A stretch of DNA of 64,000 nucleotides from Chryseobacterium turcicum. Its GTDB lineage: Bacteria > Bacteroidota > Bacteroidia > Flavobacteriales > Weeksellaceae. The notes beneath the pieces were generated by a model, which was not told where the DNA came from, made no database searches, and saw only the letters and a list, made by a program, of their open reading frames with translations. Below are positions 2,394-19,100 of this stretch, one piece after another (position 1 is the stretch's first letter; the number at the start of each line of letters is the position of its first letter). Position numbers and translations under genes: made by a program. The DNA is taken from positions 781,001-845,000 of the forward strand of contig NZ_JAJNAY010000001.1 of NCBI RefSeq assembly GCF_021010565.1. The letters run 5' to 3'.

Positions 2394-3362
2394 CTAGGCA
2401 AAAAGTTTTGATAATCTGAATAGGAAAAATGCTTTATCTCGTACACCTCGAAGTTGTAACCTGAAGTTTTTTATTTTGGCATTGAAAGATTCTGCTGAAG
2501 CATTTGTGCTTCGCTGGTTAAAATAATTGAGAATGCCGTTGTAGTTATGCATAATAGTTTTTGTTAAGGTATTAAAGGATTTAAATCCAGATTCTTCCAC
2601 TTCTCTAAACCAATGGACTAACTTTAACATAGCGACAGATTTTTGAATGTTCTGATTATAAATTTTCCTGAGCCCATCTGATAAATTGTACGCCTTTTCT
2701 AAATCGGGATACTCCTTAAATAGGATTTTTGCTCTTTGTTTTTGTGATAAAGTCCACTTTTCTCTAGTTTTATAAAGCAGGTATCTGCTTCTTGCTAAAA
2801 GTTGCTTTCGGGTGTCATCGTTTTCAAAAACTTTAATTATAGGTTTTCGCTTCTTTTGTTTCGCTTCCGTGAGCAAGTTATTTTCTTGCTCAATGGCCTG
2901 CCAGCGATGCTTAATCCTTATTTCCTGAAGGGCTTCTGTGGCGAGTTTCTGAACATGGAAGCGATCGATAACCGGTGTTGCATTAGGAAAACATTTTTTG
3001 GCAATAAGTTTCATAGACCCAGCCATATCTAAAGTAATTTCCGTTACTTTTATTCTTAATTTTCTGTTGATTTTACAAAGATGTTCAATTACTGTTTCAC
3101 TCTGTATTCCTCTGATAATGGCTACAATTGAGCCTTTTCTACCCTTTCCCTTTTTTGAGGTGAGAACGGTATAGAGTTCGCCATCAGAAAGGGCAACTTC
3201 ATCCAGAGAGAGCTGCTCTGAAATATTTTGAGGATGCAAAATCCAGTCTTCGGCGTGCGGTTTTTGCTCCCAATTTTTAAAATCGCTGAGGGAATGTTTG
3301 TACTGTCTTTGAAATTTTCTGCCCTCCACACCGTAAAGCTCTCCAATGGTTTTGCAGGACAA
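2394..3362 (-). CDS. ISL3-like transposase, catalytic part (second frame)
   Basis: This part carries the DDE catalytic domain. SLDEVALSDGELYTV early in the protein holds the first catalytic Asp; ITLDMAGSMKLIAKKCFPNA and the following VIDRFHVQKLA hold the second conserved block; NASAESFNAKIKNFR near the C-terminus holds the Glu. The frame is open upstream of the TTG at 3362 as far as the A8 run (3381-3388). Translation probably continues from the N-terminal frame across that run, reading KKSADAKALSCKTIGELYG at the junction, so the TTG is unlikely to be the true start. The stop lies directly inside the left terminal repeat. Confidence 0.85.
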   Translation of the reverse strand: MSCKTIGELYGVEGRKFQRQYKHSLSDFKNWEQKPHAEDWILHPQNISEQLSLDEVALSDGELYTVLTSKKGKGRKGSIVAIIRGIQSETVIEHLCKINRKLRIKVTEITLDMAGSMKLIAKKCFPNATPVIDRFHVQKLATEALQEIRIKHRWQAIEQENNLLTEAKQKKRKPIIKVFENDDTRKQLLARSRYLLYKTREKWTLSQKQRAKILFKEYPDLEKAYNLSDGLRKIYNQNIQKSVAMLKLVHWFREVEESGFKSFNTLTKTIMHNYNGILNYFNQRSTNASAESFNAKIKNFRLQLRGVRDKAFFLFRLSKLFA

Positions 3363-3366
3363 GGCT

Positions 3367-3720
3367 TTAGCATCGGCAGATTTTTTTTAAGAACTCTGCA
3401 AAATCTTGTGTCATGCGTGTTCCTTGGGCAATAAGAGTCCAATCTCTTTGGAGAATATTCCCCGTTTTCGTGTCTGTCCACCTTCTTCGTTTGATGTGGA
3501 GTTTTACGGTTTTGCCACGAAGCGGAAAATCATCCACCGTAATTTCTTCTAAAAAACCTTTGGAATACAATGTTAAAGAAGAAAACTCTTTTGGAATCGT
3601 ACTTTTCTCTTCGAAATAAAGATGTAAAATTTTGTTTTCTTCTTCAAAATTTATAATATCGAAGTGCTCGATTAAATATTCTGGTAATAATAATTTGAGT
3701 AGCCCGGCATCGTTAATCAT
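3367..3720 (-). CDS. ISL3-like transposase, N-terminal part (first frame)
   Basis: The 117-aa N-terminal region of the same transposase. It has an acidic start (LLKLLLPEYLIEHFDI) and a segment like the DNA-binding front of ISL3 enzymes (KLHIKRRRWTDTKTG near residues 73-87, then LIAQGTRMTQDFAEFLKK). It stops shortly after the A8 run at 3381-3388. Joining it to the downstream frame needs a +1 shift, or the loss of one A (or gain of two) by polymerase slippage. I infer programmed frameshifting or transcript slippage, because other two-frame transposases of this group are arranged this way. A simple inactivating indel is the alternative. Confidence 0.75.
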   Translation of the reverse strand: MINDAGLLKLLLPEYLIEHFDIINFEEENKILHLYFEEKSTIPKEFSSLTLYSKGFLEEITVDDFPLRGKTVKLHIKRRRWTDTKTGNILQRDWTLIAQGTRMTQDFAEFLKKICRC

Positions 3721-4249: not shown

Positions 4250-4696
4250 ATGGCTAAAAAAGTCTTTAAAATGGTTAAGCTCCAAGTAAAAGGAGGAGCA
4301 GCAAACCCATCTCCACCAGTAGGTCCAGCTTTGGGTTCTGCAGGGGTGAACATCATGGAGTTTTGTAAGCAATTTAACGGAAGAACTCAAGATAAGCCAG
4401 GACAAGTTTTACCTGTAGTAATTACAGTGTACGAAGACAAATCTTTTGAATTCGTAATTAAAACTCCTCCTGCAGCAATCCAGTTAATGGATGCAGCTAA
4501 AATCAAGAGTGGTTCTGGAGAACCAAACAGAAACAAAGTAGGTGCTGTATCTTGGACTCAGGTTCAAAAGATCGCTGAAGACAAGATGACTGACCTTAAC
4601 TGCTTTACAATGGATTCTGCAGTTTCTATGGTTGCAGGTACTGCTAGATCTATGGGATTAAGAGTAACAGGAACTAAACCAACTTTTAACGCTTAA
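4250..4696 (+). CDS. rplK: 50S ribosomal protein L11
   Basis: L11 forms the GTPase-associated centre of the large subunit with 23S rRNA. The 148-aa protein begins with the family N-terminal segment containing [20 protein letters not shown] (residues about 20-39). The C-terminal RNA-binding domain contains [13 protein letters not shown] and ends near [12 protein letters not shown]. It is the first gene of rplK-rplA-rplJ-rplL and has its own promoter about 100 bases upstream; rplA follows after 11 bases. Confidence 0.98.
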
Positions 4697-6052: not shown

Positions 6053-6418
6053 ATGTCAGATTTAAAAAATTTAGCTGAAACGCTAGTAAACTTAACAGTA
6101 AAAGACGTAAACGAATTAGCAACTATCCTTAAAGACGAGTACGGAATCGAGCCTGCTGCTGCTGCAGTTGTTATGGCTGGTCCTGGTGCTGAAGCTGCTG
6201 AAGAAAAGACTGAATTCGACGTAATTCTTAAGTCTGCAGGTGCTTCTAAATTGGCTATCGTTAAATTAGTAAAAGATTTAACTGGTGCAGGTCTTAAAGA
6301 AGCTAAAGACATCGTAGACGGAGCTCCTTCTGCTATCAAAGAAGGTATCTCTAAAGACGAAGCTGAAGCTCTTAAGAAGCAATTAGAAGAAGCTGGTGCT
6401 GAAGTAGAATTGAAGTAA
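6053..6418 (+). CDS. rplL: 50S ribosomal protein L7/L12
   Basis: L7/L12 forms the flexible stalk that recruits translation GTPases. The 121-aa protein has the dimerising N-terminal helices (residues 1-30), an Ala-rich hinge (about 37-50) and the C-terminal domain (about 53-121) with [20 protein letters not shown] and the [13 protein letters not shown] loop. It ends the rplKAJL unit and is followed by a strong terminator. rpoB, normally the next gene, is almost 10 kb away here. Confidence 0.98.
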
Positions 6419-6441
6419 TCATTTACTTTCAAACATATAAG

Positions 6442-6472
6442 AGCAACTACATTTTTTGTAGTTGCTTTTTTT
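6442..6472 (+). terminator. Rho-independent terminator after rplL
   Basis: AGCAACTACA (6442-6451) pairs with TGTAGTTGCT (6457-6466), then a T run. It separates the ribosomal operon from the inserted cassettes. The remaining bases to 6680 show no gene. Confidence 0.85.
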
Positions 6473-6681
6473 ATGCATCATATTTAAAATTAAGTTCCCT
6501 TAAAAACAGATGTGCTTCAGTATTTCTGAATAATGTTTTTTTAATCCTACTATTTCATATTTTGTCATAAAATTTTAAATCTTTTTATCATCGAGAGTTT
6601 TATATATTAATCAATTGATTACAAAATGTTAAATTTGAGTATTTAACATTTAAAGAATACTCTGATATTGAATTAATTGCT

Positions 6682-6689
6682 TAATTTTG
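6682..6689 (+). promoter_or_regulatory. Predicted promoter of cassette A
   Basis: TAATTTTG matches the -7 consensus and lies about 18 bases before the first gene of the cassette. No good -33 element is visible at the usual spacing. Confidence 0.45.
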
Positions 6690-6707
6690 CCACATAAATA
6701 ATTATAA

Positions 6708-7397
6708 TTGGGTAAAATTTTACGCAATATCAATATTAATGTAAATGAAGTAAACTTAAACTTAAGTTTACATCGTTTTTGCATTTATGTTACATTTATA
6801 TTTTCTTTTTTCTGCAGTAATGCATACGCGCAAGTTGAGATTGAGACAAGTGCTCCTCAAGCCACTATTATACTTAAACAAGGGGCTACGATTTTTTCTA
6901 CCGATGCAAGTTTCAATCAGCAAATTAATTCAGACAAAATTACCATTAAGAATGCCGATGTTTCTACATCAGAAATACATAGTAATGCGCAGATTCTTAC
7001 GGGAAGACTGAATAAAATTCCAGAAGCTGAAACTCTCAAAAAGACGTTTAGAAATGATGTAAAAATAGCTTTAGAAAATAAAAATAAGGAAACTTTAAAA
7101 AAGATAAAAAAAGAAATTGCCGATTATAAAAAAAGAATAAATCCTTTTAAGTCTGAAAATCTGCGTTTCCCTACCTCTCAAGAGTTTACTTCTGCCACAC
7201 ATACTAATCGAGATTATGTAGCACCAAGCTATAATCATCATCATTTTTCTAAAATACATGCTTCACAGAATCAATATGTCATAAAGTGTGCTTTAGATTT
7301 TTTACACAAGCAAGAATATATTTATTATAACAGTAAATCTTTAGATTACTGTTTTACTCATGTCTTTTCTGTAAGGCCACCTCCAGTTTTAGTATAA
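6708..7397 (+). CDS. Small exported protein with C-terminal SVRPPP tail (cassette A)
   Basis: Not a recognised family. The 229-aa product starts at TTG; no in-frame ATG precedes the signal peptide. A hydrophobic segment FCIYVTFIFSFFCSNAYAQ (about residues 24-42) looks like a cleavable signal. The middle is Lys-rich and helical (about 95-140). It ends KSLDYCFTHVFSVRPPPVLV. It is a paralogue of the protein at 11992-12648: they share an N-terminal IFSxDxxF segment and an almost identical tail, and little else. An Arg-Pro-Pro-Pro tail on an exported protein just upstream of a secreted protein gene resembles translation-arrest peptides such as SecM; that is inference. It starts the three-gene cassette. 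Confidence 0.7.
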   Translation: MGKILRNININVNEVNLNLSLHRFCIYVTFIFSFFCSNAYAQVEIETSAPQATIILKQGATIFSTDASFNQQINSDKITIKNADVSTSEIHSNAQILTGRLNKIPEAETLKKTFRNDVKIALENKNKETLKKIKKEIADYKKRINPFKSENLRFPTSQEFTSATHTNRDYVAPSYNHHHFSKIHASQNQYVIKCALDFLHKQEYIYYNSKSLDYCFTHVFSVRPPPVLV

Positions 7398-7428
7398 ATT
7401 CTTATAAAGGCTAATTAAGGTCTTTTAT
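7373..7428 (+). promoter_or_regulatory. Possible alternative RNA hairpins after the SVRPPP gene (A)
   Basis: AAGGCC in the codons for VRP (7373-7378) can pair with GGTCTT at 7419-7424. A competing local hairpin pairs ATAAAG (7404-7409) with CTTTTAT (7422-7428). The second cassette has the same two options at 12624-12697, with compensating changes in the local hairpin. Function is inferred only. Confidence 0.35.
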
Positions 7429-7558
7429 ACAAAAATTTATCAATCACCATCCTGTAGCTTTTTTTTAGGGCTAAAAATTGTTCACACTTCTATCATATTT
7501 TCATGTGGTAAATAAACGTTTGTTTTTATACACGCAGGTTGGTATTTAACTAAAAACT

Positions 7559-10500
7559 ATGAGTAAATATTTAAAATTCAATAATTTTAGAATAGAAAAG
7601 CACGTAATCACTAGATTTTTGATGGTTGTTTCATTATTCTTTTTTCATCACGTTTTCGCAGATGGTACAAAGCAGGTTTCTCCTGGAAATGGAAGCGGAG
7701 CAGCAACGGCAAACGGTACTGCTTATCTCGTAAATCCAACCGGTGCTGCAGGTTCTTATCCCGGCTCAGCGGTTAACTCCAAATTAAAAGTTACAGTACA
7801 AAACTTCAATATCGAGAGTATTCTTTCAGGTTTTATGCCCCGTACGTTCAATAATTCTGCTACTACATTGGTTACCAATGCTTATGTCAGAATCCTTAAT
7901 CCTTCAGGAGTAGAGGTTTATAAAAGGTTAATTCCTACAACGGCTGGGCTCCCAGGTTTTATTTCTACTTACGGTCAAGCTTGGAATGGCCCAAATGTAA
8001 GTGGTGGTTATAGCCCTTTTACTTATCAGCCTATTGTAAATGGAGAATTTACAATCGAATTGTATAGAAGTGATGATCTCGGCGTAACTGCAGTTACTGC
8101 TACTGCTGACGGAAATGTAACGTTTCCCTATTTTGATATTTCAGTAGCAACGGGAGCGGGAGCAACAACGAGCGTAATTAACGGCAGATTGTGGTCTAGA
8201 AACTGGAGTTTTATTACAACCAATATTATTGATACTAACTTTCCCAATGTTGTTACTTCTTCTTTTGAAGGAGATTTCTATGTTTTTACCAATGATGGCT
8301 TTAAGGCTCTTGTTGATTTTCAGAACGGATTTAAGCCTTTTGGTTTTCAATTGGTGATGAATTTTGAAGGAGTGGCAAGTACTGGAAACTTCGCAGCAGA
8401 TAATAAATCCCGAAATGGTATTTTTACTGCTCCTAATACAATTACTTATCCTGCTTTACCAACTGGTTATCGACTCTTTCTTACAACACCAGATCCTGTA
8501 GCCTTTCAGAATGGTACAGTGGGTTCGCCAGCAATTACGGGAAATATCTATGGATGTCCGGGAGCTTATTTTATTCCGTATTATCTAGACAGAACAGGAG
8601 ATGTTGCGGTTACATTAGATCTTAATGGTATTCCTGGTTATCAGCCAGGTACAGAAGATGTCGTTTTACAGGCTTTTAATGTACCTGTAGGAAATAATAT
8701 TATGGCCTGGAATGGTCTTAATGGCCTAGGAGGAACACCGCCGGTCAATTTTTCGGCAGGAGTTTCGGTTCTTTTACTTCAAGGTCGTGTAAATCTTCCA
8801 ATGATTGATGCAGAATTGAATACCAACGGTTTATCGGCAATTTCAATATTCCCTAACTTAGGAAATCGACCATTATTTTGGGATGATTCTGGTATTACAG
8901 CATTTGGTACTGCGGGAAATGCCAATGCAAATATAACGGTAGGAGGTACTTTTACTCCTAATCTGAGATCAGGTATTGTGGGACCAAGCCATGCTTGGGA
9001 TGGTTCAAATCCTACGTTGGCAACGCCTGCACCTTTAACGGCGAATCAAGGAAGTAATACTACTACACTAGAAGATGATTATGGGAATGCTAGAATTATC
9101 AATACTTGGTTTTATGGTTCTCAGGTCGAATCTGCATTGCGTACTTTAAGTTTACCTGGCTGTGATAACGACTTTGATGGAATTCCTAATAATATAGATT
9201 TAGATGACGATAACGATGGCATTTTAGATACTGTTGAAAATAATGGTTTAACAGATCCTCTAGGTTATTATAATGGTAGTGCGATTCCTAATTATATAAA
9301 TCCTCAATCTCCAGGATTTGTTGATACCAATTTTGATGGGGTAGATGATCGTTATGATTTAGATAAAGATGGTATTATCAACCAGTTTGATACCGATGTT
9401 GATGGAGACGGTTGTGCTGATGCAATAGAAGGAAGTGAATATGTAACTGCTGTTCAAATTCATTCGCTTACATTACCTGTGGGGGATGCTAATTACTCTT
9501 ACAGAGGGCAGATTAAGGTCTTGGCAAATGGTATAACAACTGGTACTCCATCTCAGATTGTAAGTACGGTATCTGGAGCAAATGGAGTTCCTCTTTTGGT
9601 TAATCCAGCAGCAAGTAATACTGGAAATACCTTAGGGGTTGCCGACAATACTGATGGAACTTCTGATGTAGGGCAAGGTTTAGGGATTTCTCAAAATGCA
9701 TCTTTTAATGGATGTACAGATTCAGATCAGGATGGTATTCCTGATGCTGATGATTTGGATGATGATAATGATGGAATTTTAGATAGTGTAGAATGTCCAG
9801 GTGTGAACACCGTTGTTAATGGAACATTTGATATTGGCTTTAACACTGGTAATTGGGCTTCTTCTGGAGGTTGGGTGATTTCTGGAGGTGTTGCATCTAA
9901 TGTTACTGACAGTGCAGTAAATCAAACTCTATCTCAAACATTAACTAATTTAGATAAAGCACAAGGAGGAATTGTATCTTTAACGTTCACAGTAGGTGCG
10001 CAGGATGGTAATAATGCCTCTGGTTCTAGTGCTTCTTTGGATATTCTATTGAATGGAGTAGTTTATGCTACCTTAAATAATAGTACAGTAAGGGCATTGG
10101 GTACGAATAATATTACCATAAATACACAAAACGGTGCCACAACTACTTTTGTATCTTATTCTACATTTCCTCAATCAGGATATAATGTGCAGACATTTAC
10201 ATTAGACATATTCTATTCAGGACCAGCGTCTGCAGTATTAGGTTTCAGGATGAATTCTGCATTCGATGATTGGAGTGTTGATAATGTTTCGATACTTATT
10301 CGTGCTTGTGATACAGATAATGATGGAATACCCAATGATTTAGATTTAGATTCTGATGGTGATGGTTGTCCGGATGCTATTGAAGGTTCTGAAAGTGTAA
10401 CTTATAAAATGATTAATCCTATGACGGCAACTTCTAATCCTGGACAGATTGGTGTATTGGCAAATGGTACTACAGCGGGAACTCCTGTGCAGGTGATTAG

Positions 10501-10972
10501 TACTTTTGCAGCAGCGAGAGGAGTACCACAGTTGCTAAATAATGGGGCTAATAACTATAATATTCTTAATAATACTAATAATACGGCAGGTGTTGTAGAT
10601 AATACAGATGGTTCTGCAGATGTGGGGCAAGGTATAGGGACTTCTCTTAATTCTACACTGCAAGATCTAGAATGTAGATGTTACAAACCGGCTAATACTG
10701 CTACAGCAGGTCTTCCAACCAATCAAGGGATTACAGCTTTGGGAAGAGCGGGAGCAAGTAATGGAAACTGGCCAATGAAAATTACAGGTGCATACACCGC
10801 TTTAGACGCTAAAACCAAAGGTCTTGTGCTGAATAGACTAACGACAGCTCAGATTAATGGCCTTGCTCCAGTAAGAGGAATGATGGCTTATGATACTGAT
10901 TTGAATTGCCTGAAAATCTATGACGGAACAGTATGGGCTTGCTACACCAAACAAACTTGCGATCAGTATTAA
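7559..10972 (+). CDS. Large secreted protein with thrombospondin type-3-like repeats (cassette A)
   Basis: An 1137-aa exported protein with a signal peptide near residues 20-36 (FLMVVSLFFFHHVFA). The first 530 residues are beta-rich and unlike anything I recognise. Four blocks of Asp-rich calcium-binding repeats follow, for example DGIPNNIDLDDDNDGILD near 540, DGDGCADAIEGSE near 620, DGIPDADDLDDDNDGILD near 725 and DGIPNDLDLDSDGDGCPDAI near 925. About 170 residues of beta-sandwich-like sequence separate the last two blocks. The C-terminus ends with GMMAYDTDLNCLKIYDGTVW, not with a recognisable T9SS sorting domain. It is probably a surface or extracellular adhesin-type protein. The gap to the small gene upstream is 161 bases; the next gene follows after 18 bases. 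A paralogue lies at 12729-15149. Confidence 0.8.
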   Translation: MSKYLKFNNFRIEKHVITRFLMVVSLFFFHHVFADGTKQVSPGNGSGAATANGTAYLVNPTGAAGSYPGSAVNSKLKVTVQNFNIESILSGFMPRTFNNSATTLVTNAYVRILNPSGVEVYKRLIPTTAGLPGFISTYGQAWNGPNVSGGYSPFTYQPIVNGEFTIELYRSDDLGVTAVTATADGNVTFPYFDISVATGAGATTSVINGRLWSRNWSFITTNIIDTNFPNVVTSSFEGDFYVFTNDGFKALVDFQNGFKPFGFQLVMNFEGVASTGNFAADNKSRNGIFTAPNTITYPALPTGYRLFLTTPDPVAFQNGTVGSPAITGNIYGCPGAYFIPYYLDRTGDVAVTLDLNGIPGYQPGTEDVVLQAFNVPVGNNIMAWNGLNGLGGTPPVNFSAGVSVLLLQGRVNLPMIDAELNTNGLSAISIFPNLGNRPLFWDDSGITAFGTAGNANANITVGGTFTPNLRSGIVGPSHAWDGSNPTLATPAPLTANQGSNTTTLEDDYGNARIINTWFYGSQVESALRTLSLPGCDNDFDGIPNNIDLDDDNDGILDTVENNGLTDPLGYYNGSAIPNYINPQSPGFVDTNFDGVDDRYDLDKDGIINQFDTDVDGDGCADAIEGSEYVTAVQIHSLTLPVGDANYSYRGQIKVLANGITTGTPSQIVSTVSGANGVPLLVNPAASNTGNTLGVADNTDGTSDVGQGLGISQNASFNGCTDSDQDGIPDADDLDDDNDGILDSVECPGVNTVVNGTFDIGFNTGNWASSGGWVISGGVASNVTDSAVNQTLSQTLTNLDKAQGGIVSLTFTVGAQDGNNASGSSASLDILLNGVVYATLNNSTVRALGTNNITINTQNGATTTFVSYSTFPQSGYNVQTFTLDIFYSGPASAVLGFRMNSAFDDWSVDNVSILIRACDTDNDGIPNDLDLDSDGDGCPDAIEGSESVTYKMINPMTATSNPGQIGVLANGTTAGTPVQVISTFAAARGVPQLLNNGANNYNILNNTNNTAGVVDNTDGSADVGQGIGTSLNSTLQDLECRCYKPANTATAGLPTNQGITALGRAGASNGNWPMKITGAYTALDAKTKGLVLNRLTTAQINGLAPVRGMMAYDTDLNCLKIYDGTVWACYTKQTCDQY

Positions 10973-10990
10973 TCTTTAAATTTTAAAAAA

Positions 10991-11575
10991 ATGAAAAAAT
11001 ATAGCATAGCAATTTTGTCAATCGTTTCAGGATTATTTTACAGCCAGATAACCATAGGAAAAACCACCCCCTCTTTATTACCAGCCAATACAAGTGTTTC
11101 TATAGAGTTTGGAAATGCAACGGGAGGCAATAAAGGCATCGTTTTGCCTTGGGTATCGCAAACAAGCCTTGTTGCAGGAGCAGTTCCGGGAACGATTGTG
11201 TTTGATAGTCGTGCAACAGAGCAAAAGATATATTTTGCCAAAGCTGCCACCCCAAACTCTACGGTAGTTTCGCAATGGGTAGATTTATCGGTAGGTGCAT
11301 TAACGCCAACTACAGCTTTTACTTCTGATGCCAATGATGAAAATACAGCTGCAAAAGTACTTGTTGGTGGTAATCCATTAACAGATTCTACCCCTGGAGT
11401 TTTGGTTTTGGGAGATACCAATAAAGCAATGGTCTTACCAAGAGTAAGTTCCATTGCAGATATTGTGAGCCCAAGTGCGGGAATGATGGTTTTTTTAACC
11501 GGAACGCCCACGGCTCCCATCAATCAACTTGCTGTTTTCAATGGCAGAGAATGGTCTTTTTGGGCTAAACAGTAA
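10991..11575 (+). CDS. Small secreted protein, third gene of cassette A
   Basis: Function unknown. The 194-aa product has an N-terminal signal (MKKYSIAILSIVSGLFYSQI) and a beta-rich body with VSIEFGNATGGNKGIVLPWV near residues 36-55 and TPGVLVLGDTNKAMVLPRV near 133-151. It ends with GMMVF followed by LAVFNGREWSFW, the same closing pattern as the large protein before it. It is clearly paralogous to 15169-15762. The 18-base gap to the large gene suggests co-translation, and a terminator follows. It may bind or present the large protein at the surface; that is inference from the repeated pairing. Confidence 0.75.
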   Translation: MKKYSIAILSIVSGLFYSQITIGKTTPSLLPANTSVSIEFGNATGGNKGIVLPWVSQTSLVAGAVPGTIVFDSRATEQKIYFAKAATPNSTVVSQWVDLSVGALTPTTAFTSDANDENTAAKVLVGGNPLTDSTPGVLVLGDTNKAMVLPRVSSIADIVSPSAGMMVFLTGTPTAPINQLAVFNGREWSFWAKQ

Positions 11576-11605
11576 TTCATACAATTAATTAATTTTTTAT
11601 ATAAT

Positions 11606-11637
11606 AACCACTTCGCTTTGAAGTGGTTTTTTTTTTG
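11606..11637 (+). terminator. Terminator of cassette A
   Basis: AACCACTTC (11606-11614) pairs with GAAGTGGTT (11620-11628), then a T run. Its stem is the same as that of the cassette B terminator at 15799. Confidence 0.85.
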
Positions 11638-11991
11638 GATGAAATATAATAGGGTAGAAATTTAATTATTACAGAAAGTTTTTGCGCTTTTCTCCTGAAT
11701 TATTTCATGTTAATGGGAGCGATTCAGTAAATAAAATTGAAGGTCGAAATTTTCAATTAGAATTGACAATAATCATTGCTTCTTATAGAATGTATGGGTA
11801 AATTATTACCATATGTAATTAATTATCCCTAATTAATAAAAATAATGAATTATAGGTTGAAAATCAATTGTTTCGGGTCTGATTTTGAGGTTAAAAATCT
11901 TTCTTTTTTATATAGATTTTCAGTGAGAAATTAATTAAACAAACGCTTAGTTAATAAATAAAGCGATATCTTTGCAAAGCACAAATTAAGC
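11638..11991. other. Intergenic gap between the cassettes
   Basis: A 354-base AT-rich stretch with no supported gene. The only signal noted is TATCTTTG (11967-11974), a -7 box close to the start of the next gene and a likely cassette B promoter. Confidence 0.5.
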
Positions 11992-12648
11992 ATGGATAAA
12001 AGATTTTTTTTTAAAACAATGTTGAAGTTTTTTTGTTTCCACAAAATTTCTAAATTTCACCTTTTTCTGAAACTATCCATTCTTTTTCTTTTTCAAATTA
12101 CTTCTTTTTCGGCAAAGGAAAATAGAAAAGATACTTTAAATGCATCTTTTATTTATATCGAAAAAAATATTGAGATATTTTCAAGCGATGTAAATTTTAC
12201 AAAGCAGCTTCAAAATGCAAAGGTCATTACTGAGCAGAAATTAGTAATCTGTGAACGTCTGCCAAAAACTAATAATATTTCTAAACATATACAGGTTGGG
12301 ATTGGGATTGAGGATAGAACCAGAGCTTTCCAAAATGATGAGTCTGCAAAACAAACAGAGAAAAGAATTAAAGATTTTCAAAAAAGTAAAATAAAAAAAT
12401 CTCAATGGGAAATCTATTCTAATCATACTGAAGATTCTTTTCATGAATTTTCGGGCTTTCATAAAAAGTATATTTCATCTTCCGAGCACCAATATTTTTT
12501 AGATAAGTTTTTTGCAGAAAAAGATTTTGCGGCAAAAGAAAATTTGAAATTTATACATCAGCATCAGTATTTCCTATATAGTAGTAAATCTCTGGATTTC
12601 TGTTTTTCAACTGTTTTTTCTGTAAGGCCTCCGCCTTTTTTAAGTTAA
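11992..12648 (+). CDS. Small exported protein with C-terminal SVRPPP tail (cassette B)
   Basis: Paralogue of the protein at 6708-7397, not a recognised family. The 218-aa product has a basic N-terminus and a hydrophobic segment (LFLKLSILFLFQITSFSA, about residues 24-41) acting as signal or anchor. It continues with FIYIEKNIEIFSSDVNFTKQ, matching the cassette A segment IFSTDASFNQQ. The middle is charged and Lys-rich. It ends KSLDFCFSTVFSVRPPPFLS. The last 20 residues are far better conserved between the two copies than the rest, which suggests the tail is the functional part. It starts at ATG 80 bases before the large gene. Confidence 0.7.
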   Translation: MDKRFFFKTMLKFFCFHKISKFHLFLKLSILFLFQITSFSAKENRKDTLNASFIYIEKNIEIFSSDVNFTKQLQNAKVITEQKLVICERLPKTNNISKHIQVGIGIEDRTRAFQNDESAKQTEKRIKDFQKSKIKKSQWEIYSNHTEDSFHEFSGFHKKYISSSEHQYFLDKFFAEKDFAAKENLKFIHQHQYFLYSSKSLDFCFSTVFSVRPPPFLS

Positions 12649-12697
12649 AAAAAACAAGTGTCAATTTTTTACTAGAAAAGGTCAATTTGGTCTTTTC
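12624..12697 (+). promoter_or_regulatory. Possible alternative RNA hairpins after the SVRPPP gene (B)
   Basis: AAGGCC (12624-12629) can pair with GGTCTT (12689-12694). A local hairpin GAAAAG (12675-12680) with CTTTTC (12692-12697) competes with it. The layout and the GGTCTT are shared with cassette A. Confidence 0.35.
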
Positions 12698-12728
12698 CAA
12701 TATTCTTTTTTTTAAAATTTAAAATTTT

Positions 12729-15149
12729 ATGATAAAAAATTATAAAATACTAAGTGTATTCTTGGTGTTGTTATTTAATATGTCTGCATATGCTCAAGAG
12801 GCTGGTAAGATGTATTTATCTTCTGGCCGCACAGGTAGGGTTTACGACATTTCTACAGATCTTCTTGCAGCTCCTTCATCTACAGTGAAGGCGCTACCAA
12901 TACCATTATCAATAATTAATGTGAGTGGTAGCAATAGATTAAGAACAAGTAATTTGGCGATAGGATATGATGCTGTTGCAGGAAATAGTGGGCAATTGGT
13001 GTTTTTCCACTCTGATATATCAAAAAATACTGCTTTATACAAAAATGGAAATGCAGTGGGAGCAATTACCCTACCTGAAGATATCGGAGGGATCGGAACC
13101 AATAATGTGAAAGGACCCTATTTTGGATACACCTACGGTTTTAAAAGCTTAAAAAAAAACTTATACAGAATTAACCCAAATCCGGCTCTTGTAGGAGTAA
13201 TTACTGCAGCGGTGCCTACAGATACAGATTGGGAAAACGGAACCGCTTTTGGAACAGACTCCTTTTGCGACTACCAAAATAATATTTATACGTTTATTAA
13301 TAGTGGAGCGAATCGATTTTTATATAAAATATCAATAGCTAATCTAAAGGCTACGAAAGTGATAAAGCTTGCGGATGCAACAACACCATCAAACGATGAT
13401 GGAATTCAGGGAATGGCATACTTGAATAATAAAGTTTTTATAGCAACCATTACAGGAGATTCTAGAATTACAGTTAGGGGTATTAATCTCTCTACAGGTG
13501 CTATTAATACACAAGCTATTTATGAATTTAATGAAACTTCGGCGAATATCGACTTGGCATCGGTAGATTATTTTGTACCGTTTACTTTTACTTGTGGGTC
13601 AATCGGATTTCTTAATGATACTCCTTATGTTGCAGGTGCTTCTTCTACCCGTACCTTGAGAGTTCCTATATCCAATATATATACTCCAGGTAATTATACC
13701 ATTAATGTAACAGGTGCAGGTGTTAATACGGTTCATAATACAACCATTACAACTGCTACTACACATATCGATATTCCTGTAGCGTACAGTGGTTTGGGAA
13801 ATGGAGGTAATTCTAACCTTACGATTGATTTGAACGGGAGTACAACTTCTTGTGTTTATACTACGTTTGTAGATAAAGATACAGATAATGATGGCATTAG
13901 AGATATGCTAGATTTAGATTCTGATAACGATGGTATTTTAGATATTTTCGAGTGTCCTAATTATTTTGTTAATCAGCCTTTTAACACTTCAAATGGTACA
14001 ACGGTTAATTTTTCGGCTCCTTCTGCTGATTTAGGTTTTATTTTCGATGTTTTTACGTTAGATAATTCTTTTAATTTAACGATAAATGGTGTAAAGCTTG
14101 CCACAAGTGAAATTCAGTTTCAACCTAATCAAACCGATAATATAAGATTTGTTGGCGATAATCGTTACGGAAATGATGGTGTGCCTCAGGTTTATGATAT
14201 GACGGGTAATTCTATCAATCCTTTGGTGAGAATTATTATTCATAAAAATGGCAGCATCAATATGTATGGTAGTAAAGCGGGAGATGGAAAATTATATCCT
14301 TTAGAGCTTTATAATGGAAATTCTTTTAATACAATCACATGGAATATTTCTGGAGCAAATGATGTTGTCCTTAGTCAGTTGGTTCAAGGAGCAACCTATA
14401 TTAAAGGGAATGGATACGGTGTTAAAAATGGTTTTTGTGATCCTGATAACGACGGTATTTCAAATCAGTTTGATGTAGATTCAGATGGTGATGGTTGTCC
14501 CGATGCTATTGAAGGTTCTGAAAATGTAAAATACACTCAGGTTCATTCTTTAAGTCTTCCTTCTTCAGATCCAAATTACAATTACAGAGGTCAGATTAAG
14601 GTTTTAGGAAACGGAACAACTTCTGGTTCTCCGAGTCAGATTATCAGTATAAAAGCTGAAGGGTATGGAGTTCCTCTTCTGGTAAATAGTGCTAATGGAA
14701 ATCATACCAATACTGCTGGAATTGTTGATAACACAGACGGAACAGTTGATATCGGGCAGGGAATCGGTAATTCTCAAAATGCAGCACTTAATGACTGTAA
14801 ATGCTATAATACCCCAAATACAACAACCGGCACTGATAATCCTACAAAACATGGAATTACGGCTTTCAACAGAGCGGGTGCTGATAATTCAAACTGGCCG
14901 ATGTTGAGAAATAATGGCTGGACGGCACTTGAGGCAGATACAAAAGCTTTAGTCATCAATAGAATGCCAAGTAGTACAACTGGAGCAAACGCTGGTGAAC
15001 CACTTTCAGGAGGAAATCCTGCCATCACGGTACCTGTAATGGGGATGATGTATTATGATACAACGAGCGACTGTCTGAAAATTAATACGGATGGTACAAG
15101 AGCAGGTTGGAAATGTTTTAATACACAATCTTGTCCTCTAGAAAATTAA
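12729..15149 (+). CDS. Large secreted protein with thrombospondin type-3-like repeats (cassette B)
   Basis: An 806-aa exported protein with a clear signal peptide (ILSVFLVLLFNMSAYAQ, about residues 7-23). Residues 25-300 look like a beta-propeller or lectin-like fold (LYRINPNPALVGVITAAVPT, FCDYQNNIYTFINSG). Asp-rich calcium-binding repeats follow: DTDNDGIRDMLDLDSDNDG near 385 and DPDNDGISNQFDVDSDGDG near 572. A conserved block DAIEGSENVKYTQVHSLSLP is shared with the cassette A protein, where it reads DAIEGSEYVTAVQIHSLTLP. The C-terminus has GMMYYDTTSDCLKINTDGT and a final WKCF. No T9SS sorting tail is recognisable. N-terminal parts of the two large proteins are unrelated, so the cassettes share a C-terminal frame with exchanged front ends. 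Confidence 0.8.
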   Translation: MIKNYKILSVFLVLLFNMSAYAQEAGKMYLSSGRTGRVYDISTDLLAAPSSTVKALPIPLSIINVSGSNRLRTSNLAIGYDAVAGNSGQLVFFHSDISKNTALYKNGNAVGAITLPEDIGGIGTNNVKGPYFGYTYGFKSLKKNLYRINPNPALVGVITAAVPTDTDWENGTAFGTDSFCDYQNNIYTFINSGANRFLYKISIANLKATKVIKLADATTPSNDDGIQGMAYLNNKVFIATITGDSRITVRGINLSTGAINTQAIYEFNETSANIDLASVDYFVPFTFTCGSIGFLNDTPYVAGASSTRTLRVPISNIYTPGNYTINVTGAGVNTVHNTTITTATTHIDIPVAYSGLGNGGNSNLTIDLNGSTTSCVYTTFVDKDTDNDGIRDMLDLDSDNDGILDIFECPNYFVNQPFNTSNGTTVNFSAPSADLGFIFDVFTLDNSFNLTINGVKLATSEIQFQPNQTDNIRFVGDNRYGNDGVPQVYDMTGNSINPLVRIIIHKNGSINMYGSKAGDGKLYPLELYNGNSFNTITWNISGANDVVLSQLVQGATYIKGNGYGVKNGFCDPDNDGISNQFDVDSDGDGCPDAIEGSENVKYTQVHSLSLPSSDPNYNYRGQIKVLGNGTTSGSPSQIISIKAEGYGVPLLVNSANGNHTNTAGIVDNTDGTVDIGQGIGNSQNAALNDCKCYNTPNTTTGTDNPTKHGITAFNRAGADNSNWPMLRNNGWTALEADTKALVINRMPSSTTGANAGEPLSGGNPAITVPVMGMMYYDTTSDCLKINTDGTRAGWKCFNTQSCPLEN

Positions 15150-15168
15150 TTTTAAAATCTTAAAAAAA

Positions 15169-15762
15169 ATGAAATTTATATATTCAATCATGTTAGGAAT
15201 CTCTTGTACGGTTACTTTTTCTGCACAGGTAGCGATTGGGAAATCTTCTTTAACTGTTCTTCCATCTACAACGACGCCTAATCCTTCCATTTCTTTAGAA
15301 TTTGGATCAGGTTTTAAAGGATTGATTTTACCATGGGTAACCAATGCAGGAGCTGTTAGTCAACATCCCACTGCAAACCAAAAAGGCGGTGCTTTGGTTT
15401 TGGATCGTGCTGACCGCAAAGTAAAGTTTTCTAAAAACAACGGTACTTGGGTTGATTTAACGGTTCATACCAATGAATTGCCGGCAACAGGAGGGAATAC
15501 CGCAGTAGACGCTGCTTTACAAACAAATGTTTCTTACCCTGAGAAAACAGAGGCTAAATCTCAAATCGGAGGAAGTCTTTCAGATCTTACTCCTGGGATT
15601 TTAGTGTTAGCAGATACCAACAAAGCGATGATTCCACCCTTGGTTGAGAATCCTGAAATAAATATTAAAAGCCCTGCACCGGGAATGATGGTTTTTGATC
15701 CGGTAAGAAAACTATTTTGTGTCTACAATGGTACAGTTTGGTCGTATTGGAGGGCAGGATAG
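15169..15762 (+). CDS. Small secreted protein, third gene of cassette B
   Basis: Paralogue of 10991-11575, function unknown. The 197-aa product has an N-terminal signal ending near TFSAQ (residue 20), then VAIGKSSLTVLPSTTTPNPS. The shared segments are SISLEFGSGFKGLILPWV, TPGILVLADTNKAMIPPLV and the closing SPAPGMMVFDPVRKLFCVYN with TVWSYW. It lies 19 bases after the large gene, matching the 18 bases in cassette A, and is followed by a near-identical terminator. Confidence 0.75.
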   Translation: MKFIYSIMLGISCTVTFSAQVAIGKSSLTVLPSTTTPNPSISLEFGSGFKGLILPWVTNAGAVSQHPTANQKGGALVLDRADRKVKFSKNNGTWVDLTVHTNELPATGGNTAVDAALQTNVSYPEKTEAKSQIGGSLSDLTPGILVLADTNKAMIPPLVENPEINIKSPAPGMMVFDPVRKLFCVYNGTVWSYWRAG

Positions 15763-15798
15763 CTGTTTTTAAAGCAAAAAAAATCATTTTTAAATGCT

Positions 15799-15826
15799 AA
15801 CCACTTCATTTTGAAGTGGTTTTTTA
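15799..15826 (+). terminator. Terminator of cassette B
   Basis: AACCACTTCA (15799-15808) pairs with TGAAGTGGTT (15812-15821), then a T run. Stem shared with the terminator at 11606, which supports duplication of the whole cassette. Confidence 0.85.
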
Positions 15827-15857
15827 TTGTGTATGAAATTTAAATTTTGTAAATTTG
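15827..15857 (+). promoter_or_regulatory. rpoB promoter
   Basis: TTG (15827-15829), 20 bases, TAAATTTG (15850-15857). The -33 element abuts the tail of the cassette B terminator. The predicted start near 15864 gives a leader of about 320 nt before rpoB. Confidence 0.7.
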
Positions 15858-15864
15858 CATTCTC

Positions 15865-16087
15865 TTTTGGCGCTAAAAATTAAACATATTACGGTAAAAT
15901 ACTGAAAATCAACTCTTTTATGAAAATAAAAGGGTCTTCTCTGTTTTATTTCGTTTAAAATTTATATTCCATTAGATAAAAATAAAGATATTTTGCATTA
16001 CACTGTGAAAAGATATACCAGTGTTGCAGTTAGAATTTGATAAAGATATAAAGTTAAGGAATTAAGGTTCTTACGTGAGCGCCAAAA
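15865..16087 (+). ncRNA. Structured 5' leader of rpoB
   Basis: TTTTGGCGCT (15865-15874) is the exact reverse complement of AGCGCCAAAA (16078-16087), so a 10-bp stem beginning at the predicted transcription start could close a domain of about 220 nt. Inside, 15912-15921 pairs with 15926-15935 around a GAAA tetraloop, and ACACTG (16000-16005) pairs with CAGTGT (16019-16024), extended by TGCA on both sides. No known leader family was recognised. No gene is visible between this element and rpoB. Confidence 0.5.
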
Positions 16088-16182
16088 ACACTTTTCCCTT
16101 TTTGCTTTTTACTTTGTTTCTTCTTCGTTCTGATATTTTTGAATAAAAACAAAATATTTTTTAACCCTTTCTTAAAAGTTTT

Positions 16183-19100
16183 ATGAGTAAAACAACATCA
16201 ACAACTAGGGGAGTTGAGAGAATTAATTTCTCTTCGGCTAAAGGAAAAATCATTACTCCGGATTTCTTAGATATCCAGTTAGAGTCATTTAAAGATTTTT
16301 TCCAGCTAGACACACTTCCTGAGGACAGAAAGAAAGAAGGTTTGCACAAAACCTTCCAAGAAAACTTTCCTATTACCGATTCTAGAAACCAATTCGTATT
16401 GGAATTCTTAGACTATTTGGTAGATTCTCCACGTTATTCTATCAACGAATGTGTGGAAAGAGGTTTAACGTATTCCGTGCCTCTAAAAGCTAGACTTAAA
16501 TTATACTGTACAGACCCTGAACATGAAGATTTTCAGACAGTTGTGCAAGATGTATACTTAGGTCCGGTTCCTTATATGACTGATAGTGGTTCTTTCATCA
16601 TCAATGGTGCAGAAAGAGTTATTGTTACGCAGCTTCACCGTTCACCTGGTGTATTCTTCGGGCAAACTTACCACGCAAACGGAACTAAACTATATTATTC
16701 AAGAATTATCCCTTTCAAAGGATCTTGGATGGAATTTACAACTGATATCAACAGCGTAATGTACGCGTATATCGACCGTAAGAAAAAATTACCTTTAACA
16801 ACGTTATTAAGAGCAATCGGTTTTGAATCTGATAAAGATATCCTTCAAATCTTCGATCTTGCTGAAGAAGTGAAAGTTTCTAAAGCTGCCCTTAAAAAAG
16901 TAGAAGGTAGAACTTTGGCTGCGAGAGTATTGAACACTTGGTTCGAAGATTTCGTAGACGAAGACACTGGTGAGGTAGTTTCTATCGAAAGAAACGAAAT
17001 CATCTTAGATAGAGAAACAATTCTTGAAAAAGAGCATTTAGATCTTATCATAGATGCAGGTGTGAAATCTATCTTGATTCACAAAGAAAATGCTAACGAA
17101 TTCTCTATCATTCAGAATACGTTACAGAAAGACCCTACGAACTCTGAAAAAGAAGCAGTAGAATATATTTACCGTCAGCTAAGAAATGCAGATCCACCCG
17201 ATGAGGAAACTGCAAGAGGAATTATCGAAAAATTATTCTTCTCTGAGCAAAGATATTCATTAGGTGAAGTAGGACGTTACAGACTAAACAAAAAGTTAGG
17301 TCTTAATATCCCTACTACAACTGAGGTTCTTACAAAAGAAGATATCATTGCAATTGTAAGACACTTAATTGAATTGGTAAATTCAAAAACAGATGTTGAT
17401 GATATTGATCACCTTTCAAACAGAAGAATTAAAACTGTTGGTGAGCAATTAGCAGGGCAGTTCGGTGTAGGTCTTTCGAGAATTGCAAGAACTATTAAGG
17501 AAAGAATGAACGTTAGAGATAACGAGATATTTACTCCTCTAGATCTTGTTAATGCTAAAACTTTAACATCAGTAATTAATTCATTCTTTGGTACCAACCA
17601 GCTTTCTCAGTTCATGGACCAAACCAACCCTCTATCAGAAATCACGCACAAGCGTAGACTTTCTGCCCTAGGACCTGGTGGTTTATCAAGAGAAAGAGCA
17701 GGTTTCGAGGTACGTGACGTTCACCATACTCACTATGGTCGTATTTGTCCGATCGAAACTCCTGAGGGACCAAACATTGGTTTGATTTCATCTTTAGGTA
17801 TTTATGCTAAAATCAATACGTTAGGTTTCATCGAAACTCCGTATAGAAAAGTAAATGCTGGAACTGTAGAATTAAATGGAGATCCTATTTATTTAAATGC
17901 AGAAGACGAAGAAGATAAAGTAATTGCTCAGGCAAACGTTGAGTTAGATGACAATGGTGTTTTCTTAACAGACAGAATTATTGCTCGTCTAGACGGTGAT
18001 TATCCTGTAGTTGAGCCTTCTCAGGTTAATTTGATTGACGTTGCACCAAACCAGATTTCTGGTATTTCAGCTTCATTAATTCCTTTCTTGGAACATGATG
18101 ATGCGAACAGAGCGTTGATGGGATCAAACATGATGCGTCAGGCAGTTCCTTTGTTGAAGCCACAAGCTCCAATTGTAGGTACAGGTCTGGAACAACAAGT
18201 TGCGAAAGATTCTAGAATCTTAATCAATGCTGAAGGTAGAGGTACTGTAGAGTATGTAGATGCTGATAAGATTACCATTAAATATGAAAGAAGCGAAGAC
18301 GAAGATTTAGTATCATTCGAATCTGCTACAAAAACATATAACCTTACGAAGTTTAGAAAAACTAACCAGAGTACAACCATTACCCTAAGACCAAACGTAA
18401 GAATAGGTGATATCGTGGAAAAAGGACAAGTACTTTGCGACGGTTATGCTACTGAAAAAGGAGAATTAGCTCTTGGTAGAAACTTAGTAGTTGCGTTCAT
18501 GCCTTGGAAGGGTTACAACTTTGAGGATGCGATCGTAATCAACGAAAAAGTAGTACGTGAAGACTGGTTTACTTCAATCCACGTAGATGAGTATTCTCTT
18601 GAAGTTCGTGATACCAAATTAGGTATGGAAGAATTGACAGCAGATATTCCAAACGTTTCTGAAGAAGCTACAAAAGATCTTGATGAGAACGGAATGATCA
18701 GAATCGGTGCTGAAGTGAAGCCTGGTGATATCATGATTGGTAAGATTACTCCAAAAGGTGAATCTGATCCTACTCCTGAAGAGAAACTTCTTAGAGCAAT
18801 CTTTGGTGACAAAGCTGGTGATGTGAAAGATGCTTCATTAAAAGCAGATTCATCATTAAGAGGTGTTGTTATCAACAAAAAATTGTTCTCTAGAAACATT
18901 AAAGATAAAAAGAAAAGAACTGAAGAAAAACTTAAACTTGAAGAGATTGAAAACACTTACAAGGCTAGGTTTGATGAGTTGAGAAACAGTTTAATTGAAA
19001 AATTAAACACTTTGGTTAGCGGTAAAACTTCTCAAGGAGTTACCAATGACTTAGATGAGGAAATCATCGGTAAAGGAATGAAGTTTACTCACAAATTATT

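Follow-up and report, generated by a model that had tools for sequence, protein, structure and literature searches.

The window is a 64,000-nucleotide stretch of the Chryseobacterium turcicum genome (contig NZ_JAJNAY010000001.1, positions 781,001 to 845,000). Between rplL (6053-6418) and rpoB (from 16183 on), both named by eye, it carries two tandem units on the forward strand. Each unit is built in the same order, with a promoter box TAnnTTTG, an exported leader, a large secreted protein, a small secreted partner, and a terminator-like hairpin. TAnnTTTG is the consensus of the Bacteroidota -7 promoter box. In the first unit, the box TAATTTTG (6682-6689) lies directly 5' of leader 1, and a second match, TAAATTTG, is found nearby at 6630. 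Leader 1 (6708-7397) is an exported small protein of 229 aa with a TTG start; its reading frame runs out in SLDYCFTHVFSVRPPPVLV and the stop codon, the terminal residues being FSVRPPPVLV. Its RPPP codons (7374-7385) are the predicted stall site; the P site would hold the second Pro and the A site the third, following the geometry that the accessible text of PMC4176338 gives for RPPP stalls. The segment predicted to lie beneath the stalled ribosome (7386-7398) contains TTTTAGT (7387-7393), which is complementary to 7549-7555, and folding makes the start region of the large gene (7548-7563) the MFE partner of the leader end. Large secreted protein 1 (7559-10972, 1137 aa) has a conserved four-Cys domain at its C-terminal end (10679-10969). 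It is followed by the 194-aa partner protein (10991-11575), whose C-terminus is LAVFNGREWSFWAKQ, and by an intrinsic terminator-like hairpin at 11606-11628.

The second unit begins with the box TATCTTTG (11967-11974), 5' of leader 2 (11992-12648). Leader 2 is an exported small protein of 218 aa with an ATG start; the alternative start ATG at 12019 gives 209 aa, matching record P0003. Its reading frame ends with SLDFCFSTVFSVRPPPFLS before the stop, the terminal residues being FSVRPPPFLS, and its RPPP codons, again the predicted stall, occupy 12625-12636. Within the leader 2 tail (12637-12654), TTAAAAAAAA (12645-12654) is complementary to 12706-12715, and the MFE pairing of the tail differs from this match. 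The gap between leader 2 and its gene holds a U-tailed hairpin (12675-12697), the 5' arm of which is the MFE partner of the leader tail. Then come large secreted protein 2 (12729-15149, 806 aa, conserved C-terminal domain 14802-15146), its partner protein (15169-15762, 197 aa), and an intrinsic terminator-like hairpin (15799-15821) that is a near copy of the one at 11606. Leader 1 stops 161 nt, and leader 2 80 nt, before its large gene. Both large genes begin with a signal-peptide-like sequence, and the earlier note's statement that each leader stands directly upstream of a large secreted protein gene is confirmed by 7559-10972 and 12729-15149.

Elsewhere in the window, two adjoining pieces of transposase-like ORFs were noticed by eye on the reverse strand (2394-3720), between a nusG-like gene (1669-2211) and rplK (4250-4696). 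Judged from short sequence patterns, rplL upstream and/or rpoB downstream lies within 12 kb at 31 of 88 leader-bearing loci, some genomes being counted twice. The rplL-rpoB interval houses leader cassettes in many relatives, for example at loci L034, L041, L073, L083, and L104.

Protein searches with the two leaders returned 24 and 32 proteins, their own copies counted, and the named relatives are from Chryseobacterium, of the family Weeksellaceae. We aligned both window proteins with 45 of the 54 distinct database proteins (47 sequences in all), own copies, fragments, and near-duplicates being excluded. RPPP is invariant in this alignment and mean column identity is 37%; the nine invariant columns include Cys215, Arg223, Pro224, Pro225, and Pro226. 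The variable middles and near-identical tails first read from the two window proteins are thus found among their relatives as well, and the signal-like N-termini ascribed to both are borne out by eye and by hydrophobicity rather than by SignalP. Several leaders show little visible likeness to each other apart from the signal peptide and the tail.

A DNA pattern search for FSVRPPP-like tails found 67 places in 45 of 320 family genomes, and the reversed pattern 11 places. Positive genomes carry one to five matches each; the own genome has two, both of them the window loci and included in the 67. Three places in ORFs of 14-19 aa were dropped, and the remaining 64 belong to ORFs that span 90 aa or more and stop 1-9 residues past the motif. 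FSVRPPP is exact in 62 of these 64. The 64 kept tails are written in 51 distinct 21-mers, with Arg as AGA, AGG, or CGN, Ser as TCN or AGY, and every Pro codon in use. As the bodies diverge and the tail codons vary, selection acts on the peptide. Conservation of the tail at the DNA level, as for a binding site, was considered and is ruled out by the 51 different 21-mers. In other families of the order, the tail pattern occurs at 4 places in 319 genomes, against 20 places for the reversed control; across the phylum, RPPP followed by three residues and TAA occurs in 176 of 296 genomes, by eye not above the reversed control. Since these tail patterns show no excess over the controls, they lend no support to a spread beyond Weeksellaceae.

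We also assembled a wider set by selecting ORFs with R[PAG]PP among their final 14 residues. It numbers 112, some genomes being represented twice, and the motif is RPPP in 105, RAPP in 5, and RGPP in 2. By a heuristic other than SignalP, an N-terminal hydrophobic core is present in 100 of the 112, and 79 have both the core and an [AS]Q cleavage-like site. The distance from the core to the motif is 64-338 residues (median 176.5). Other leader types, with SVRPPP or YSxRPPP tails in place of FSVRPPP, were seen at L125:3175-3852, L132:3206-3922, L171:11298-11987, and L173:5162-5854; the first three have an FSVRPPP leader at the same locus, and the L132 variant precedes a VGIN-type secreted protein. 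The leaders and the four downstream proteins of the window have no credible Pfam match, and NCBIfam matches to rpsC (E 0.0024) and BamM fall far below the cut-offs. Against the PDB, the leader profile reached a best E of 0.35.

The next gene was defined as the longest same-strand ORF starting within about 420 nt, with start codons chosen by rule. For 52 of the 64 leaders, it encodes at least 550 aa with the C-terminal domain. The other 12 are followed by a VGINTxxP-type secreted protein (5), by another or truncated ORF (5), by no such ORF (1), or lie outside the table (1). A large gene is found up to 4 kb downstream of 55 of the 64, two of these being shared with a neighbouring leader. In the wider set (n=112), 82 leaders are followed by a gene with the domain according to the strict pattern (85 according to the relaxed one), 10 by a VGINTxxP-type gene, 16 by another or a truncated one, and 4 by none. 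The earlier note had counted a random genomic context of conserved tails against an arrest function; the context was found to be non-random, with a large secreted-protein gene next in 52/64. The check it proposed, whether exported proteins with an RPPP end lie upstream of secreted-protein genes, comes out positive in Weeksellaceae at this same ratio; outside the family, the tail patterns searched gave no excess over the controls. The partner gene, of about 175-200 aa (about 370 aa at some loci) and with an end resembling LAVFNGxxWSFWKP, is seen in the fetched stretches downstream of 41 of the 64 leaders.

The C-terminal domain of the large proteins is about 105 aa long and has four invariant Cys. 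Its profile has no match in the PDB up to E 1, and as a guess it may be a trimerising or surface-attachment end. The structure models of the leader (mean pLDDT 58.8, with residues 200-225 under 50) and of the domain (mean pLDDT 64.1) were left unused because of this low confidence and because no PDB fold matched at E 0.001 or better. Queried alone in a reverse test, the domain identified 79 loci in named genomes, taken from the best 80 of 258 relatives; 77 loci were usable, as two genes run off the contig. An RPPP-ended ORF lies within 420 nt upstream of 24 of the 77 usable domain genes. At ten further loci, the upstream ORF has another PP-containing tail, with gaps of 30 to 409 nt. Specifically, the tails are RAPP at L122, L162, and L165 and RGPP at L117 (these four 30-303 nt upstream), RPPT at L127, RPPN at L141, KPPP at L139 and L145, RSPPP at L106, and an unrelated PP tail at L100. 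The RAPP and RGPP variants matter because both are arrest motifs of Chiba and colleagues, according to the accessible text of PMC10987492 and PMC12992588. No PP-tailed leader was found at 43 of the 77 domain genes; since 29 of these have a PP-less upstream ORF and 14 have none, the leaders are common and not universal. In the 79 cassette loci, R[PAG]PP occurs in 46 of 2935 ORFs of at least 60 aa, and in 45 of these 46 it falls within the last 14 residues. Among ORFs of at least 90 aa in the same loci, 37 of the 41 xPPP motifs that fall within the last 14 residues are RPPP, against 1 of 28 located elsewhere.

The promoter box is unevenly distributed. Counted with redundant genomes included, TAnnTTTG has a density of 3.52 per kb within the 200 nt before leader cores (76 matches in 21.6 kb, 45 of them in a single 20-nt bin), as against 0.18 per kb for the gaps between leader and gene (2 matches in 11.3 kb) and 0.23 per kb for leader bodies (13 matches in 55.8 kb). 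As the box precedes the leaders and is rare in the gaps, one shared transcript for leader and gene is expected.

At many loci, the nucleotides that directly follow the Pro codons match, as reverse complement, a segment at the downstream start, and the letters differ from locus to locus, as in the arm/target pairs GTATTAG/CTAATAC, ATATTGG/CCAATAT, AATAGCGTA/TACGCTATT, and GTTTTAGC/GCTAAAAC. A ribosome stalled at PPP would cover about the first ten nucleotides that follow, given its footprint size. Complementarity was measured on sets made non-redundant by shared 10-mers, drawn from 63 loci with a downstream ORF within 330 nt. For a 22-nt tail (47 loci), the longest Watson-Crick run was 7.64 in true pairs versus 6.29 in swapped ones (z 7.7, 0/20000 permutations), and a control arm formed by the preceding FSVRPP codons gave z -0.8. 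For a 14-nt sliding arm (46 loci), there is a sharp peak at offset 0 from the PPP end, where the run is 7.09 versus 5.56 swapped (z 9.5). With arms from -12 upstream or +9 downstream, the magnitude of the swap z is below 2, and the shuffle z lies between -2.1 and 2.7, compared with 11.2 at the peak. On the target side, the highest values (z 6.9-7.7) come from windows that begin between -26 and -14 relative to the start codon, and z stays under 2 for windows from +4 onward. Runs of at least 7, 8, and 9 nt are present in 26, 16, and 11 of the 46 loci versus 18.4%, 6.8%, and 2.3% of swapped pairs, respectively, the swap and shuffle controls modelling shared ancestry incompletely. Complementarity holds for the set, with only about half of the loci showing it clearly. 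For the 23 leaders lacking FSV before the motif, it is not separable from noise (z 2.2 at -5, 1.6 at 0, -2.0 at -40). The first complementarity test had given z -4.9 over 49 loci; in it and in the first accessibility test, the target ended at or before +15, missing loci that pair with codons 3-7, and was later extended.

In folding, deletion of the covered tail raised the mean unpaired value of the start region from 0.474 to 0.533 (p 0.0022, 43 loci), and own tails differed from swapped ones with p 0.016; at least three tail nucleotides are paired with the start region in only 16 of the 43 loci. Covariation counts over 11 loci found 92% of cells paired and four pairs changed on both sides, against 28-49% for slid controls, and are biased since the 11 were chosen as visibly pairing. 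At window locus 1, the MFE structure joins 7381-7383 to 7561-7563, 7385-7390 to 7553-7558, and 7391-7393 to 7549-7551, thereby spanning the start codon at 7559; its z is -2.15, with 3 of 200 shuffles as stable. An RNA structure linking leader end and gene start, as in the SecM/VemP switch logic, is thus predicted for the set and at locus 1, and not at locus 2. A check of 6400-16300 returned no known RNA family at gathering score.

An explanation unrelated to the ribosome is that RPPP serves these exported proteins as a C-terminal signal for sorting or for binding another protein, as the proteins are exported and terminal tails are often signals; the pLDDT below 50 of the tail (residues 200-225) neither backs nor rules out such a role. 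A sorting signal would, however, leave unexplained why the nucleotides after PPP match the start of the next gene, why the promoter box precedes the leader and is so seldom found in the gap, and why RAPP and RGPP variants occur. Given the complementarity, the promoter position, and the variants, we hold this explanation to be very unlikely.

Window locus 2 is predicted to fold differently. In its MFE structure, 12633-12651 pairs with 12666-12682, overlapping the 5' arm of the hairpin at 12675-12697 (z -0.88), and the leader tail is not paired with the gene start; the 10-nt A/T complementarity to the pre-start region exists nonetheless. As the tail pairs with an arm of a U-tailed hairpin, the control logic may differ here, and the direction of control is ambiguous at this locus. 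In CruR-like logic, arrest exposes the transcript to Rho. A transcriptional mechanism of this kind, or one in which the tail is an antiterminator arm, would have arrest lower expression; the pairing of the leader 2 tail with the hairpin arm would suit it, and a similar hairpin is seen by eye at L056, a homologue of locus 2. The set-wide complementarity nevertheless aims at the start codon region, and we consider a transcriptional mechanism decidedly improbable.

We favour, with a probability of about 0.8, the reading that these genes constitute a family of RAPP-like arrest leaders in Weeksellaceae and control operons for secreted proteins. The leader would be exported during its own synthesis, and arrest would set in when the terminal Arg-Pro-Pro-Pro codons, mostly after Phe-Ser-Val, enter the active centre, at the point where the P site holds the second Pro and the A site the third. 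If no arrest occurred, the ribosome would terminate one to nine codons further on, and the freed tail would pair with the next gene's start and close it. With arrest, the ribosome would occupy the tail, the start region would be open, and the large protein would be produced. The pull of the Sec machinery on the leader would probably free the arrested ribosome, so that the leader serves as a reporter of export. The FSVRPPP-like ending probably jams the ribosome, and since the RNA under a stalled ribosome tends otherwise to pair with the next gene's start, the stall probably switches on the large secreted protein. The proposal of a translation-arrest leader of a secreted-protein gene is therefore well supported by the tail, the context, and the set-wide tail-start complementarity, which, along with peptide-level conservation and promoter position, are visible in the sequence. 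From these features we infer arrest, export-driven release, and the direction of control at each locus.

The sections of PMC4176338 available on XPPP motifs report that, of those tested in one E. coli context (NlpD), RPPP gave the strongest stall; in a second comparison of that study it was one of eight strong motifs and not unique. EF-P relieved the RPPP stalls in E. coli (PMC4176338), and the accessible text of PMC10987492 reports that, of the RAPP-like sequences taken from proteins of E. coli and B. subtilis, most did not arrest efficiently in vitro. Because EF-P rescues RPPP and most RAPP-like sequences arrest poorly, residues before RPPP must matter, a need that fits the conserved FSV. 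The same EF-P rescue would agree with a pause without any sensing, in which the tail merely times translation of leader and gene and EF-P sets the rate; a passing ribosome would still briefly open the tail-start helix. For such a pause, however, a signal peptide and about 180 exported residues would be needless, yet most leaders keep them, and FSVRPPP is conserved beyond a generic PPP pause. A mere timing device thus appears unlikely.

The sensing step is the weakest part of the proposed arrest mechanism. Sensing of export would be favoured by the retained signal peptide and the long spacer, as in the monitoring substrates described in the available text of PMC10987492. Why a cell should make more secreted protein at times of slow export is not self-evident, and this counts against our preferred explanation. 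Just past the signal peptide, within residues 31-110, otherwise divergent leaders share a GxxIYSxDxxFNxQ-type motif, the core of which is found in 56 of 92 non-redundant leaders versus 4.7 expected in shuffles, a count inflated by the leaders' common ancestry. Arrest and RNA switch might thus be real while the signal is a periplasmic ligand or partner acting on the exposed mature N-terminus, in a CutF/copper-like manner, rather than the export rate. The median core-motif spacing of 176.5 residues would leave the N-terminus outside during arrest, and a ligand would account for the regulated gene being no Sec component; CutF governs a periplasmic oxidase and not Sec, as stated in the accessible part of PMC9973294. 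No ligand-binding family was recognised among the leaders, though, nor any credible Pfam or PDB relative, and reading the two window leaders found no CxxxC in their mature parts. We judge a ligand signal somewhat doubtful. Tentatively, and at rather less than even odds, the arrest leaders may form a dedicated family in Weeksellaceae, frequently with two or more to a genome, in which an RNA helix couples each leader to one secreted operon and the N-terminal motif senses the export or assembly route, or the periplasmic state, that the secreted protein needs.

The leaders most resemble the RAPP-like (RQH) arrest peptides ApdA, ApdP, and ApcA of Fujiwara et al. 2024 (PMC10987492), as far as the accessible text of that paper describes them. 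In both cases, a small exported ORF precedes the regulated gene, unrelated bodies carry a long post-signal spacer and a short R-x-P-P tail near the stop, and arrest is expected to open the downstream initiation site. Of the features listed there for RQH peptides, the leaders have the N-terminal secretion signal or TM segment (core in 100/112), the conserved R-x-P-P-like C-terminus (RPPP invariant in 47 aligned proteins), and the spacer of over 30 residues (64-338). They differ in that the core is mostly RPPP after FSV and that the target is a large secreted protein; they are not uORFs of secA, secDF, or yidC, the screen in PMC10987492 having looked upstream of sec and yidC genes. Small RAPP/RGPP uORFs precede genes of diverse function in the accessible text of PMC12992588; that survey took RAPP and RGPP, and none of the gene groups which this text names is the secreted-protein cassette.

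SecM-SecA is alike in layout and in the proposed logic, a stalled ribosome unmasking the next start; SecM ends in RAGP before secA (PMC10987492, accessible text), whereas the leaders end in RPPP and their target is not secA, which sets them apart from SecM. CutF of R. capsulatus and CruR of Bordetella are likewise proline-tailed leaders governing genes outside Sec, and CutF acts via a stem-loop over the next start (PMC9973294, accessible part). Their targets are copper-related, in contrast to the downstream genes here, and the CxxxC copper motif in the exported part of CutF is missing from the mature part of the two window leaders. In LPPP-tailed leaders, too, the stalled ribosome has the second Pro of PPP in its P site, and NSP and NAP tails occur in Bacteroidota (PMC10987492); in the accessible descriptions, these LPPP, NSP, and NAP leaders have different motifs and stand upstream of secA or secDF.

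RAPP-like arrest leaders are already known as a kind, as is their use outside Sec (PMC12992588, accessible text). As far as our searches show, the literature found does not describe an RPPP core after FSV, regulated genes of this sort, several such leaders in one genome, or restriction to a single family, and supplements may list RPPP leaders. The main text of PMC10987492 has RPPP once, in a list of motifs sought in two proteomes, and that of PMC12992588 does not have it; a search for literature on arrest peptides in Chryseobacterium found none. These observations suggest that surveys restricted to RAPP/RGPP, or to genes upstream of sec and yidC, overlook systems.

Arrest leaders in the literature found serve the secretion machinery, metal-related genes, and some others; here they apparently serve large secreted proteins, with up to five leaders per genome. 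The match between the RNA that a stalled ribosome would cover and the start of the next gene is an unusually direct evolutionary footprint of such a ribosome. With many natural leaders sharing one tail on different bodies, the family is a good set for learning what nascent chains sense. If the leaders are indeed dedicated to their secreted operons, Weeksellaceae would possess a nascent-chain sensor system for the cell surface, rather than for Sec capacity or metals.
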